From contig CANHBY010000029.1 in assembly GCA_947458895.1 (NCBI GenBank), positions 1-8,544 on the forward strand: a stretch of DNA of 8,544 bases. The letters run 5' to 3'. The stretch comes from Burkholderiales bacterium (GTDB taxonomy: Bacteria; Pseudomonadota; Gammaproteobacteria; Burkholderiales; Burkholderiaceae_C). This document shows positions 3,529-6,932 of the stretch, one piece after another. The notes beneath the pieces are model-generated. The model had not been told where the DNA came from. It made no database searches and was given only the letters and a program-made list of their open reading frames with translations. Position 1 is the first letter of the stretch. Every line of letters begins with the position of its first letter. Position numbers and translations under genes: made by a program.

Positions 3529-4437
3529 ATGAACACCCAGGATGCGAAGCGCGTCCTTGAAACCGCGCTTATCTGTGCACGCGAGCCCATGCCCATGCGG
3601 GACATGCGCACGCTCTTCGATGATCGGCTCAGCGCTGACAGTGTGCGCAGCTTATTGGATGGGCTTCTCCTTGAGTGGCAAGGCCGAGGGGTTGAGTTGG
3701 TCACCTTGTCAACAGGCTGGCGCTTCCAGAGTCGCCCCGAAATGCGAGAGTACCTTGATCGTCTGCATCCCGAAAAGCCCCCGAAATATTCACGAGCCGT
3801 GCTCGAAACCCTCGCCATCATTGCCTACCGGCAGCCTGTCACGCGTGGTGATGTGGAAGATATTCGGGGTGTGGCGGTTAACAGCCAAATCATCAAGCAA
3901 CTTGAAGACCGCAACTGGATCGAAGTCATTGGTCACCGTGAAGCGCCCGGTCGTCCGGCCTTGCTGGCCACCACCAAAACATTCTTGAACGATCTGGGTT
4001 TGAACAGTTTGACCCAGTTGCCTGCCCTTGAAAGTCCTGGCACCCTCGGCCCGCTGAGCATGCTTGAGTCTGAGCTGGAAGGCGCCGAGCCGATTCATAA
4101 AGAACCCCCGCAAAACCTGGAACTGGCGCTTCACAGCCCAGACAGCCTAGTGTCATGTCAGGGCTCAAATGCCGCTTGCTCGCTTGCCCTCAACCCCGAT
4201 GGCGTCGTTGCTTCTCGTCGCCATAGCCCAAGCTATGACTCCTCGTCGCGCCTAGCCAGTGGGCTTGATGGCGGCGCGATCAAACGACATTTGAGCCCTG
4301 ACACGACACTAGCCCCCGAAGAGTCTGCCCAGCAGATCTCTGTGCTCAGCGAGCCGCTACCCCCTGCGGACGAGCTCGCCCCTACAACCGCCCCATTTGA
4401 GGCGGAATCCCTTGGCCCTCTGGAGCCTAAAGTATGA
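3529..4437 (+). CDS. scpB: Segregation and condensation protein ScpB, with C-terminal extension carrying a palindromic insertion
   Basis: ScpB is the winged-helix kleisin-binding subunit of the SMC-ScpAB condensin that organises and segregates the chromosome. The protein is 302 aa. Two winged-helix units fill residues 1-160, with the conserved YSRAVLETLAIIAYRQPVTR core (87-106), DIRGV (111-115) and GRPALLATT (141-149). The start at 3529 is forced: TGA stands in frame at 3520-3522, and MNTQDAKRVLETALI is the familiar beginning. From about residue 168 the tail is acidic, Pro/Ser-rich and probably disordered. Residues 207-261 come from an inverted-repeat element (see 4147-4312) and differ in character: they include both Cys residues of the tail and are rich in Ser, Gly and Arg. 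Without it the tail would read PDSLAPEES and the protein would be 248 aa. The stop overlaps the rluB start (ATGA), suggesting translational coupling. Confidence 0.93.
   Translation: MNTQDAKRVLETALICAREPMPMRDMRTLFDDRLSADSVRSLLDGLLLEWQGRGVELVTLSTGWRFQSRPEMREYLDRLHPEKPPKYSRAVLETLAIIAYRQPVTRGDVEDIRGVAVNSQIIKQLEDRNWIEVIGHREAPGRPALLATTKTFLNDLGLNSLTQLPALESPGTLGPLSMLESELEGAEPIHKEPPQNLELALHSPDSLVSCQGSNAACSLALNPDGVVASRRHSPSYDSSSRLASGLDGGAIKRHLSPDTTLAPEESAQQISVLSEPLPPADELAPTTAPFEAESLGPLEPKV
4147..4312. repeat. 166-bp palindromic (MITE-like) element inserted in frame in scpB
   Basis: The outer arms 4147-4171 and 4288-4312 are reverse complements at 24 of 25 positions, beginning CTAGTGTC and ending GACACTAG. 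Complementarity continues inward at 33 of the first 37 positions, then weakens with small indels. A perfect stem CATAGC (4222-4227) / GCTATG (4232-4237) with loop CCAA closes it. Both the arms and the central stem are symmetric about 4229.5, so this is one dyad rather than two chance hairpins. TA (4148-4149, 4310-4311) or CTAG at both ends may be a target duplication. Removing the unit plus one duplication takes out 162 bp, 54 codons, and the reading frame through it is stop-free. No transposase is encoded. It does not match REP, ERIC or Correia sequences as I remember them. Confidence 0.85.
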
Positions 4438-6236
4438 ACTCTCAAGACCCTACCATCCCCGAAGGCGGCCTGACGCCGGCCACCTTGGACGATCCCGCCG
4501 CTGAGGCACCTGCCGTCAAGACGCGTCGTCCTCGCGCGCGCAAGGTGGCCGAGGTGCCTGCGGGCTTAGCTTCGGCACCTGAGGGGGGTGAGCGTGAAGG
4601 CGTTACGCTTGACGCGCAGGTGGCTGTCCCGGCCCCAGCCGAAGGTGAGCCCGTTGAACAAGAGGCTGCAGCCCGGCCTCGCCGTCGTAAAAAGCCAGAA
4701 GCTGAAGTTCAGGCGCCGGTTGTTGAGCAGGCCGAGGGTGTTCCCGTTGAGGCCGCTGCCGTTGTGCAGGTCGATGGGCCAGAAGACGACTCGGCCGATG
4801 AGGCTGAAGTGATCAGCGCCCCCAGGCCCCAACCTGCAGAGGTGGGCGAGGTGTTTGCGCAAGTGTTGTCGGGTGAGTTTGATGTGGACTCGCCCGAGAT
4901 TCCGCCCATTCCTGCGAAGCGTGTGTTGTTGCCTGATCCTGATGCGCCCAAGCTGCACAAGGTACTGGCCCAGGCAGGCGTAGGCTCTCGCCGAGACATG
5001 GAGCAAATGATCGTCGACGGCCTGATCACTGTGAATGGCCACTCCGCCCACATCGGTCAGCGTATTTCATTTGGCGATCAAATCAAGGTCGATGGCAAAC
5101 CGATCAGGGTCAGCATTGTTCCGCCTCCTCCGCGCATCATTGCTTACCACAAGCCCGCTGGCGAGGTGGTGACCCATGATGATCCTCAGCATCGCCCCAC
5201 CGTGTTCCGCCGTTTGCCTCGCTTGCCAAAGGGCAAGTGGCAGTCTGTGGGCCGCCTTGACCTGAACACCGAGGGCTTGTTGCTGTTCACCAATTCTGGC
5301 GAGCTGGCAAACCAACTCATGCATCCACGCTTTGGCGTTGAGCGTGAATATGCGGTGCGCGTACTGGGTACGCTGGAGCCCGAGGCCAAAGCCAAGTTGT
5401 TGGAGGGGGTCGAGATTGAAGGCCAACAGGCCAGCTTCAAGTCGGTTGAAACAGGTGGCGGTGAGGGCGTGAACCGCTGGTACCGCGTGGTCATCACGGA
5501 GGGGCGTAACCGAGAGGTGCGCAAGCTCTTCGACTCAGTGGGCCTGACTGTGAGCCGATTGATCCGTATCCGTTACGGCACGGTCGTGCTTCCCCATGGC
5601 CTCAAGCGAGGCGCCTGGGTTGATTTGCACACCGATGATGTGCAAATCATTCGCCAGTTGGCTGGCGCAGGCACCCCTCGTTCGGGCCGTGACGGCCGTG
5701 ATTCACGCGACGCACGAGACACCCGTGGGGGTGGTCGAGATGGTGGTCGCGATGTTGTTCGTGATGGCGGCCGAAACCACCGAAACAAGCAGCGCGGCAA
5801 CGATGTTCAACGCCGCAATCAGCCACCCCAGGAACGATTTGCAGAGCGTGGTCAGCAGCAGGTTCGGCAAAATCCGGTGGTCCAGCGGACCGACGAATTT
5901 GAAGACGACTTCGACCCGCGTCAAATCCCTAACCCGCTGGAGCAAACCTTCGACAAGCGCTTTGTTTCGAACCCGCGATCACCAGCTGGTGGCCGGGGCT
6001 TCCGCAATGGCGGGGGCGGTTTTGGCTCGGGTGGCAGTGGCCCGGCGCCATCAGCGGCGCCCAAGAAGGGCGCCCCTCGTGAGCCCGATCCTCTGCAAAC
6101 CTCAGTGGGTTACATCGGCGCAGACGCATTCCACCGCAAAGGGGGGGGCGGTGGCCGCTCCGGTGGTGGAAGCCGTGGCGGGGGTGGGGGCTATGGCGGT
6201 GGCGGTGGCGGTGGCGGTGGCAGACGCGGCCGCTGA
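4434..6236 (+). CDS. rluB: 23S rRNA pseudouridine synthase RluB (2605 type), with long disordered N- and C-terminal extensions
   Basis: RsuA/RluB-family synthase, expected to make pseudouridine 2605 in 23S rRNA. The protein is 600 aa, about twice the catalytic core. Residues 1-160 are Pro/Ala/Glu-rich with basic patches (TRRPRARK, RPRRRKKPE). An S4 domain covers about 173-230 (KLHKVLAQAGVGSRR, then DGLITVNG). The catalytic domain, about 235-400, holds HKPAGEVVTHDD, the signature GRLDLNTEGLLLFTNSGEL with nucleophile Asp276, and EGRNREVRKLFDSVG. From 414 to the end is a low-complexity RNA-binding-like tail: GRD/SRD repeats, a Gln/Arg stretch, then glycine-rich RGG-like segments ending GRRGR. 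Long tails on RluB are common in Burkholderiales, so this is probably normal there. The ATG overlaps the scpB stop. A G8 run (6141-6148) and a GGCGGT repeat lie in the tail. RsuA or RluE is less likely given the size and the scpB neighbour. Confidence 0.95.
   Translation: MNSQDPTIPEGGLTPATLDDPAAEAPAVKTRRPRARKVAEVPAGLASAPEGGEREGVTLDAQVAVPAPAEGEPVEQEAAARPRRRKKPEAEVQAPVVEQAEGVPVEAAAVVQVDGPEDDSADEAEVISAPRPQPAEVGEVFAQVLSGEFDVDSPEIPPIPAKRVLLPDPDAPKLHKVLAQAGVGSRRDMEQMIVDGLITVNGHSAHIGQRISFGDQIKVDGKPIRVSIVPPPPRIIAYHKPAGEVVTHDDPQHRPTVFRRLPRLPKGKWQSVGRLDLNTEGLLLFTNSGELANQLMHPRFGVEREYAVRVLGTLEPEAKAKLLEGVEIEGQQASFKSVETGGGEGVNRWYRVVITEGRNREVRKLFDSVGLTVSRLIRIRYGTVVLPHGLKRGAWVDLHTDDVQIIRQLAGAGTPRSGRDGRDSRDARDTRGGGRDGGRDVVRDGGRNHRNKQRGNDVQRRNQPPQERFAERGQQQVRQNPVVQRTDEFEDDFDPRQIPNPLEQTFDKRFVSNPRSPAGGRGFRNGGGGFGSGGSGPAPSAAPKKGAPREPDPLQTSVGYIGADAFHRKGGGGGRSGGGSRGGGGGYGGGGGGGGGRRGR
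6195..6221 (+). repeat. GGCGGT hexanucleotide tandem repeat in rluB tail
   Basis: Four exact copies of GGCGGT (6195-6218) plus GGC, encoding nine consecutive glycines just before the final RRGR. Copy-number change would stay in frame and only alter the length of the glycine spacer. Confidence 0.85.
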
Positions 6237-6300: not shown

Positions 6301-6464
6301 CAGTGCAGTGTTTCACTCTTTCTGGAACATAAAACCGTGCCTTTTGGGTCATGGCCGCGTTGCACATCCTCGCGATACCAATCGGTATCGCTGTGGTTTT
6401 CGCCTTGCCCTGACCCAAAGTGCATCGCTTTTATTTGTTCCATCAAGAGCAAAACACTGCACTA
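6301..6464. repeat. 164-bp palindromic (MITE-like) element upstream of ndk
   Basis: The outer arms pair at 24 of 28 positions (6302-6329 with 6436-6463), including a perfect 12-bp end AGTGCAGTGTTT / AAACACTGCACT and TGGAACA / TGTTCCA. Further in, TTTGGGTCA (6343-6351) pairs with TGACCCAAA (6411-6419). A perfect 8-bp stem GCGATACC (6372-6379) / GGTATCGC (6384-6391) with loop AATC closes the centre. The axes agree to within 1-2 bp, so this is one long dyad with small indels. The right end is TA (6463-6464) and the left is CA (6301-6302), compatible with a decayed TA target duplication. It has the same 164-bp span as the scpB element but mostly different sequence. The alternative is a structured leader RNA or regulatory region native to ndk. 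Confidence 0.7.
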
Positions 6465-6506: not shown

Positions 6507-6932
6507 ATGGCGATTGAACGCACCCTCTCGATCATCAAACCCGATGCCGTTGCCAAAAACGTGATCGGTCAAATTTACGCCCGCTTTGAAGGCGCTGGCT
6601 TGAAGGTGGTGGCAGCCAAGTTGGCCCACCTCTCCCGCGGCGAAGCTGAGGCGTTTTACGCCGTTCACAAGGCCCGTCCGTTCTTCAATGACCTGGTCAA
6701 CTTCATGATCTCTGGCCCTGTCATGATCCAAGCCCTCGAAGGTGAGAACGCCATCGCTGTGAACCGCCAGCTGATGGGCGCCACCGACCCCAAGAAGGCC
6801 GAGAAAGGCACCATCCGTGCCGATTTCGCTGACAGCATCGATGCCAATGCCGTACACGGCTCTGATGCCCCTGAGACCGCCGCCGTTGAAGTCGCCTTCT
6901 TCTTCCCAGGCATGAACGTTTACTCTCGCTGA
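6507..6932 (+). CDS. ndk: Nucleoside diphosphate kinase
   Basis: Transfers the gamma phosphate of ATP to nucleoside diphosphates through a phosphohistidine, balancing cytoplasmic (d)NTP pools. The 141-aa length is typical. Visible: the start [15 protein letters not shown] with the conserved KPDAV (11-15), the Ala-Gly-Leu-Lys-Val strand, RPFF (about 56-59), [20 protein letters not shown], and the active-site motif [12 protein letters not shown] in which His117 is the phosphorylated residue. The start is supported by GGAG (6496-6499) with a 7-nt spacer. It follows the 164-bp palindrome and probably has its own promoter there. Only 30 bp separate it from rlmN and no terminator is visible between them, so ndk-rlmN-pilF/pilW may be cotranscribed. 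Confidence 0.98.

Follow-up and report, generated by a model that had tools for sequence, protein, structure and literature searches.

The scpB gene of the window (the whole stretch of 8,544 nucleotides analysed here) contains a palindromic insertion which is very probably a non-autonomous mobile element, likely cut and pasted in trans by a transposase of the IS630 family (Tc1/mariner-like) into the TA of CTAG. Many copies, empty sites in three genes, a shared pattern of ends and target, a length of about 164 bp in most relatives found and a compensated fold in very diverged relatives were observed, and genes assigned by sequence to the IS630 family were found between look-alike ends in other genomes.

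Structure of the element in scpB

The element (4147..4312, plus strand; recognised by direct reading, genome copies and ScpB alignment) lies within the C-terminal tail of scpB (3529..4437, plus strand; 302 aa, PF04079), and its in-frame placement was confirmed by the open reading frame and the homologue alignment. CTAG was read at both tips. The TA dinucleotides within these CTAGs (4148..4149 and 4310..4311) would be the two copies of a duplicated target, judging from the tips themselves and from the flanks of the other copies; measured from TA to TA (4148-4311), the element is 164 bp. The architecture described by the sequence-only reading was reproduced in all its parts: the left and right terminal inverted repeats, 25 bp each including CTAG (4147..4171, plus strand, and 4288..4312, minus strand), matched at 24 of 25 bases in inverted orientation, with one base different; the apical stem-loop CATAGC-CCAA-GCTATG (4222..4237) was centred on 4229.5, which is the centre of 4147-4312; and the 166 bp minus one CTAG left 162 bp, or 54 codons. 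Between arms and apex, a central asymmetric core hairpin was detected at 4192..4267 on the minus strand (model R1, 61.5 bits). The whole 166 bp resembled its own reverse complement (71% identity), a likeness which extends beyond the tips and the centre.

The folding check proposed earlier gave an RNA fold of -87.6 kcal/mol, compared with a mean of -50.8 for shuffled sequences (z -8.86; 0 of 200 shuffles as low), and a chance palindrome was rejected on these values. An assembly artefact was also discarded: an ScpB relative (P0002, 97% identical) has the insert in the same place. The element is short, encodes no transposase, has terminal inverted repeats and is multicopy, as miniature inverted-repeat transposable elements (MITEs) are.

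Copies in the source genome

In the source genome, G000, with 1.67 Mb spread over 299 contigs and a completeness of 66%, the element gave 72 alignments; as it is a near-palindrome, both strands were often listed. These corresponded to 43 non-overlapping copies or pieces on 38 contigs, 22 of them full-length. The 12-bp end TAGTGTCGTGTC was matched 123 times at one mismatch or fewer, vs. 7 times for the reversed control. CTAG was present at both tips of most copies, and c and g surrounded TA..TA in 12 of the 18 own 166-bp copies; TA inside CTAG on both sides of most copies may reflect duplication of a TA target.

Across the 78 contigs examined, internally shortened copies of 42 to 133 bp were found (e.g. 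L072 914-987, L083 2480-2554, L087 4613-4707 and L106 4462-4556), together with about two dozen single ends recognised by eye, in which 12-27 bp of one end were followed by unique DNA. At two loci (L060 3563-3890 and L062 105-211) the element is interrupted, at an identical position, by a copy that belongs to another end family, which suggests that the nested pair was itself copied; the nested insertion in L060 has a CCT repeat. Two element ends stood back to back across one TA in L085 (5571-5592).

Carriage by plasmids or phages was considered and rejected: the element was absent from the plasmid and phage collections searched, and no viral contig had both exact ends. A plasmid search with an element of genome G417 returned one Azotobacter plasmid, matched over 33% of the query.

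Empty sites and in-frame copies

ScpB was found in 79 of 80 genomes of the family, matches outside the own genome covering mainly the N-terminal part. In a separate protein search, 120 of 7998 matches were listed and ten of them aligned; among these ten, P0004 (248 aa) was exactly 54 residues shorter and read ALDSPDRP-APEES, and P0003 (245 aa) was 57 residues shorter and read ALHSP-VPEES; the search for empty sites in scpB relatives was therefore positive at the protein level for sites lacking exactly 54 residues. Two other genes behaved in the same way. Three relatives of a rhomboid protein (L033), P0121, P0122 and P0123, aligned on both sides of the insert and each lacked exactly the 54 residues, as did P0242, a relative of YhdP (L034). 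Another YhdP relative, P0241, was missing 50 residues, with VSCQG alone left of the insert, and reads as a remnant, a copy that would have been mostly deleted; single ends may arise in the same way, by deletion of a copy down to one tip. A third relative, P0243, was more diverged at the insertion site. The proposal of a MITE-like element in frame in scpB had been open to attack if relatives offered no empty site or the genome no further copies; empty sites exist, further copies are many, and the proposal now draws support from the 54-residue empty sites, the 43 copies or pieces and the CTAG tips.

The sense frame was free of stops in 15 of the 22 full-length copies of G000, and the other five frames always contained stops. 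In-frame insertion in conserved genes was found for ScpB, the rhomboid protein and YhdP. The element was also traversed by the open reading frames of a CheA-like kinase (L028; 1335 aa, the frame still open where the contig ends), of a protein with a molybdopterin-binding domain (L031, the true start of which is unsure because the domain starts just after the element), of an acyl-transferase-like protein (L026; Pfam match below the cut-off) and of an EarP start (L039), where positions 1-52 of the 372 of the profile precede the element and the contig ends 29 codons after it. In a flank test that joins nothing, the sense frame stayed open over 40 codons or more on either side of the element in ScpB, L026, L028, L031, L033 and L034; L026 has a longer antisense frame as well. 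Six loci (L027, L030, L032, L042, L043 and L046) showed only frames that the element would stop, either by chance or through disruption. Purifying selection would explain the in-frame state of the survivors within genes. The subfamily of this genome adds 162 bp with one open sense frame, so that insertions in tolerant parts of genes would survive as a 54-residue insert.

The coding tolerance that the sequence-only reading had proposed stands for the subfamily of this genome and does not extend to the wider family, in which 52 of 80 elements had no open frame at all and none of 24 gene-like placements, each flanked left and right by 60 or more open codons, was in frame (some of these may be chance frames).

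Distribution of the family

Genome contigs were scanned for both exact 12-bp ends separated by a gap of 125-155 (149-179 bp overall). Eighty-four stretches matched and 80 were listed; the latter came, by record prefix, from 47 assemblies with the labels of nine or ten phyla, most of them metagenome-assembled genomes (MAGs), in the labels of which binning errors occur. Record titles named Bacteroidota, several “Deltaproteobacteria” and Desulfobulbales, Binatia, Gemmatimonadales and Myxococcales, and further Acidobacteria, Marinimicrobia, Melioribacteraceae, Clostridia and Pseudomonadota. The element was also present in named cultured strains (Castellaniella sp. S9, two Candidimonas species and Anaerophaga thermohalophila, the last assigned by ends, length and fold and not by the core model), and two phyla are therefore independent of binning. 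The length was 163-167 bp in 63 of the 80 listed elements, where 149-179 was allowed, and the context c-TA..TA-g occurred in 58 of the 80. The end motif was found in 32 of 32 genomes chosen for holding the element, with 4 control matches in total, and the exact paired pattern in 2 of 300 genomes of its own order. Judged from these scans, the distribution of the family is wide but patchy. Thus, of the betaproteobacterial MITE family suggested earlier, the MITE in this genome is retained and the taxonomic confinement is not, the same ends occurring under nine or ten phylum labels. No description of the element was found in the portion of the open-licence literature that was searched, including by the letters of the ends and core.

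The putative mover

An IS630-type DDE_3 match was obtained in 10 of the 22 genomes searched, nine of them above the cut-off. IS630 genes lay between C-TA-GTGTGGCGTCTCA and an inverted near-copy of it in G128, and between CTAGTGTAGTGTCCC and CTAGTGTGATGTCTC in G574; in G482, an IS630-type gene adjoined CTAGTGTTGTGTCCC. The right end of an IS630 of a Flavobacteriaceae MAG (two overlapping frames) shared 36 of 47 bases with the small elements of that genome, and its left end agreed clearly over CTAGTGTC only. On one side of an IS630 gene of Fulvivirga (L259) the exact 12-bp end was present, no left end being seen. IS630-like ends with a TA target were thus found in other genomes. The G128 transposase was matched in 9 of 24 genomes, all 24 with an element bearing these ends, and gave no match in the remaining 15. 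In the own genome (66% complete), no intact IS630 with matching ends was found; two fragments of another subgroup were present, and its match to the G128 transposase was a fragment of another subgroup.

Insertion at TA is described for an IS630-family transposase in the part of the source drawn on here (PMC2170065), which cites a paper with a title on the preference of IS630 for the TA of CTAG. The ends, the TA/CTAG target and the look-alike ends of IS630 genes elsewhere make an IS630 transposase the likely mover; since IS630-like ends occur in other genomes and only fragments of another subgroup in this one, mobilisation is likely to be in trans, by a transposase that would recognise the ends of the element.

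Conservation of the fold

Forty of 82 elements were less than 80% identical to each other and formed the distinct set. Twenty-eight were used for covariation; the other 12 were dropped because their length was odd or their interior unlike the rest (L175, L181, L183, L194, L196, L204, L210, L215, L219, L226, L233 and L245), and the covariation was therefore measured on a selected set. RNAalifold returned for the 28 elements one long hairpin of 48 pairs, 36 of them with double changes, and 89.6% of cells were paired, compared with 65.2% after shuffling and 34-47% when slid. Of 29 other interiors, 8 were matched by a profile of 9 Pseudomonadota interiors, which matched none of 580 scrambles that preserve the palindrome (the Pseudomonadota L183 and L210 were in neither set, and orientations were fixed by best match to five references). 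The eight matched interiors were labelled Binatia, Deltaproteobacteria, Desulfobulbales/-aceae, Acidobacteria, Gemmatimonadales and Myxococcales; among the 29 tested, no Bacteroidota interior was matched.

An RNA with a cellular role, such as an RNase III-processed or regulatory hairpin, could in principle account for the conserved fold. The very stable fold, the covariation and the cutting of Correia transcripts by RNase III, as stated in the portion of PMC10969869 used, would suit such a role, which we nevertheless judge very improbable: copies sit at many unrelated places, in genes and outside, single ends and deleted copies are abundant, and Rfam gave no match above the gathering score in 11 loci including L001. 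The weak Rfam matches (up to E 5) were four, to three microRNA families and one IRES, and two of the four overlapped cores in L041; all were below gathering, and a known Rfam RNA family was rejected for these loci.

A second explanation, an ordinary MITE by descent, deserves more weight and is still rather unlikely. Length, ends and fold would come from one active ancestor that spread horizontally, and the pairing would be kept by hairpin-templated correction rather than by need. Correction of quasi-palindromes is a known process, and the interior identity between distinct relatives, barely above that of shuffled sequences (50.4% vs. 45.9%), also counts for this explanation. Against it, among 18 equal-length copies of the own genome, 33 paired positions varied and 1 pair co-varied significantly; changes in these settled copies are thus mostly unpaired, and correction is therefore not pervasive there. 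The three end families of one genome, moreover, have one length (see below). The free decay of settled copies suggests that pairing is kept in source copies: those from which new copies are made would need their arms paired and their ends correctly spaced, a need which we infer because settled copies decay without compensation.

The core hairpin and other ends

The core, which lies on the minus strand in this element, is a central hairpin of 76 nt that reads AGGCGC .. stem-loop .. GCAACG. Twenty cores were aligned initially, and 16 of them, from four genomes, were used for model R1; L095, L033, L098 and L073, of one family, were left out, their stem being out of register. The model replaced a loose core regular expression, the 590 matches of which were mostly false. 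With R1, 63 of 229 genomes of the class proved to contain the core. It was detected in 34 of the 80 end-defined elements and at five further places next to them; the 34 were labelled as about seven phyla, including Bacteroidota (a Fulvivirga MAG). The other 46 had no core by R1, and at least seven end-defined elements had a different central hairpin by eye (L175, L209, L181, L228, L245, L226 and L215); the core is therefore not required with these ends. Several end-defined relatives have a GTCATTCCCGCG-like centre, which we take to be reminiscent of GTAG/CGTC REPs.

Conversely, the core occurred in palindromes with other ends (GTGCAGTGTTT, GGGCCTGTTCGGAAAG and GGAACCTCTGAT), many of about 160-172 bp, others of about 90-121 bp and some of unclear length, as given by a crude arm alignment. 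One is in the window: a second element of the same build (6301..6464, minus strand; 164 bp, ends GTGCAGTGTTT, core hairpin at 6344..6419, minus strand, 69.8 bits) lies between the open reading frames 4434-6236 and 6507-6932, presumably rluB and ndk. Its left TA, in TA-GTGCAGTGTTT, is degraded. Core palindromes of 118-121 bp that have AGTTGRACG at one end and CTACG at the other were seen at L117, L125, L131, L119, L137, L098 and L109, and inverted core pairs about 30 bp apart at G397:C61, G544:C37, G540:C468 and C177. Three end families in G000, sought at a spacing of 140-200 bp, share their length: 18 of 23 members of the first measured 164 bp (one copy is entered twice among the F1 rows), and the values for the others were 164 in 4 of 7 (the F2 row L051 is probably an F1 piece) and 165 in 9 of 12. 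When a transposase was sought for another end type, one search yielded one element only, and another gave 26 end matches, paired about 165 bp apart or single.

The core might also be a separate mobile or recognised unit, REP-like, captured by different MITE ends. Its presence with many ends and in palindromes of both size ranges, the inverted pairs in G397, G544 and G540 and its occurrence in 63 of 229 class genomes agree with this account, which we consider unlikely. The core is at most a candidate for mobility on its own, and the associated genes examined were IS630. REPs, moreover, are given in the part of PMC3733652 consulted as 20-40 bp long and tagged GTAG or CGTC; the core exceeds that length and has an internal loop that is conserved.

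On the preferred account of an element moved by IS630, new end types would arise on the same scaffold, and different transposases could therefore move that scaffold. Taken further, the element would be a mobile chassis indifferent to the transposase that moves it: a palindrome fixed at about 164 bp, in many cases built around a single asymmetric hairpin, would exchange its ends while its build is kept, be moved by unrelated transposases and have spread unnoticed through many phyla. We put this forward tentatively, as less likely than not.

Comparison with known elements and significance

Correia elements have 26-bp ends and a TA duplication. The analogy drawn in the sequence-only reading with Correia elements/NEMIS holds for a MITE with inverted ends, but by description these are 204 bp long and belong to Neisseria (portion of PMC10969869 used). 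RUP of Streptococcus pneumoniae, a MITE of IS630-Spn1, is likewise small and non-autonomous, with IS630-like ends at TA; as described in the part of PMC2229807 referred to, it is, unlike the present element, 107 bp long, intergenic and restricted to one species, and a shared core or a length kept across phyla goes unmentioned there. Rickettsia palindromic elements (RPE) are also palindromic, of about 105-150 bp, and carry an open frame in frame in conserved genes (parts of PMC2229807 and PMC10969869), but they are described from Rickettsia, and the sequence in those passages, compared by description, has no TA motif, and an IS link goes unmentioned. GTAG/CGTC REPs share with the element short hairpin repeats, some within genes; in the same part of PMC3733652, GTAG REPs are linked to RAYTs and CGTC REPs to no transposase. 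The element, at 164-166 bp with long arms and TA-flanked ends, does not belong to that class.

In the present family, the ends, the length and the fold of one small hairpin are kept over great distances, and three kinds of ends have the same length in one genome. The usual view of bacterial MITEs is that they are the local debris of a single IS. Should mobility depend on pairing and spacing, these would constitute an unrecognised structural requirement in IS630/Tc1-mariner transposition. With the in-frame copies, the conversion of mobile DNA into protein segments of conserved genes gains an example beyond Rickettsia that is well populated.
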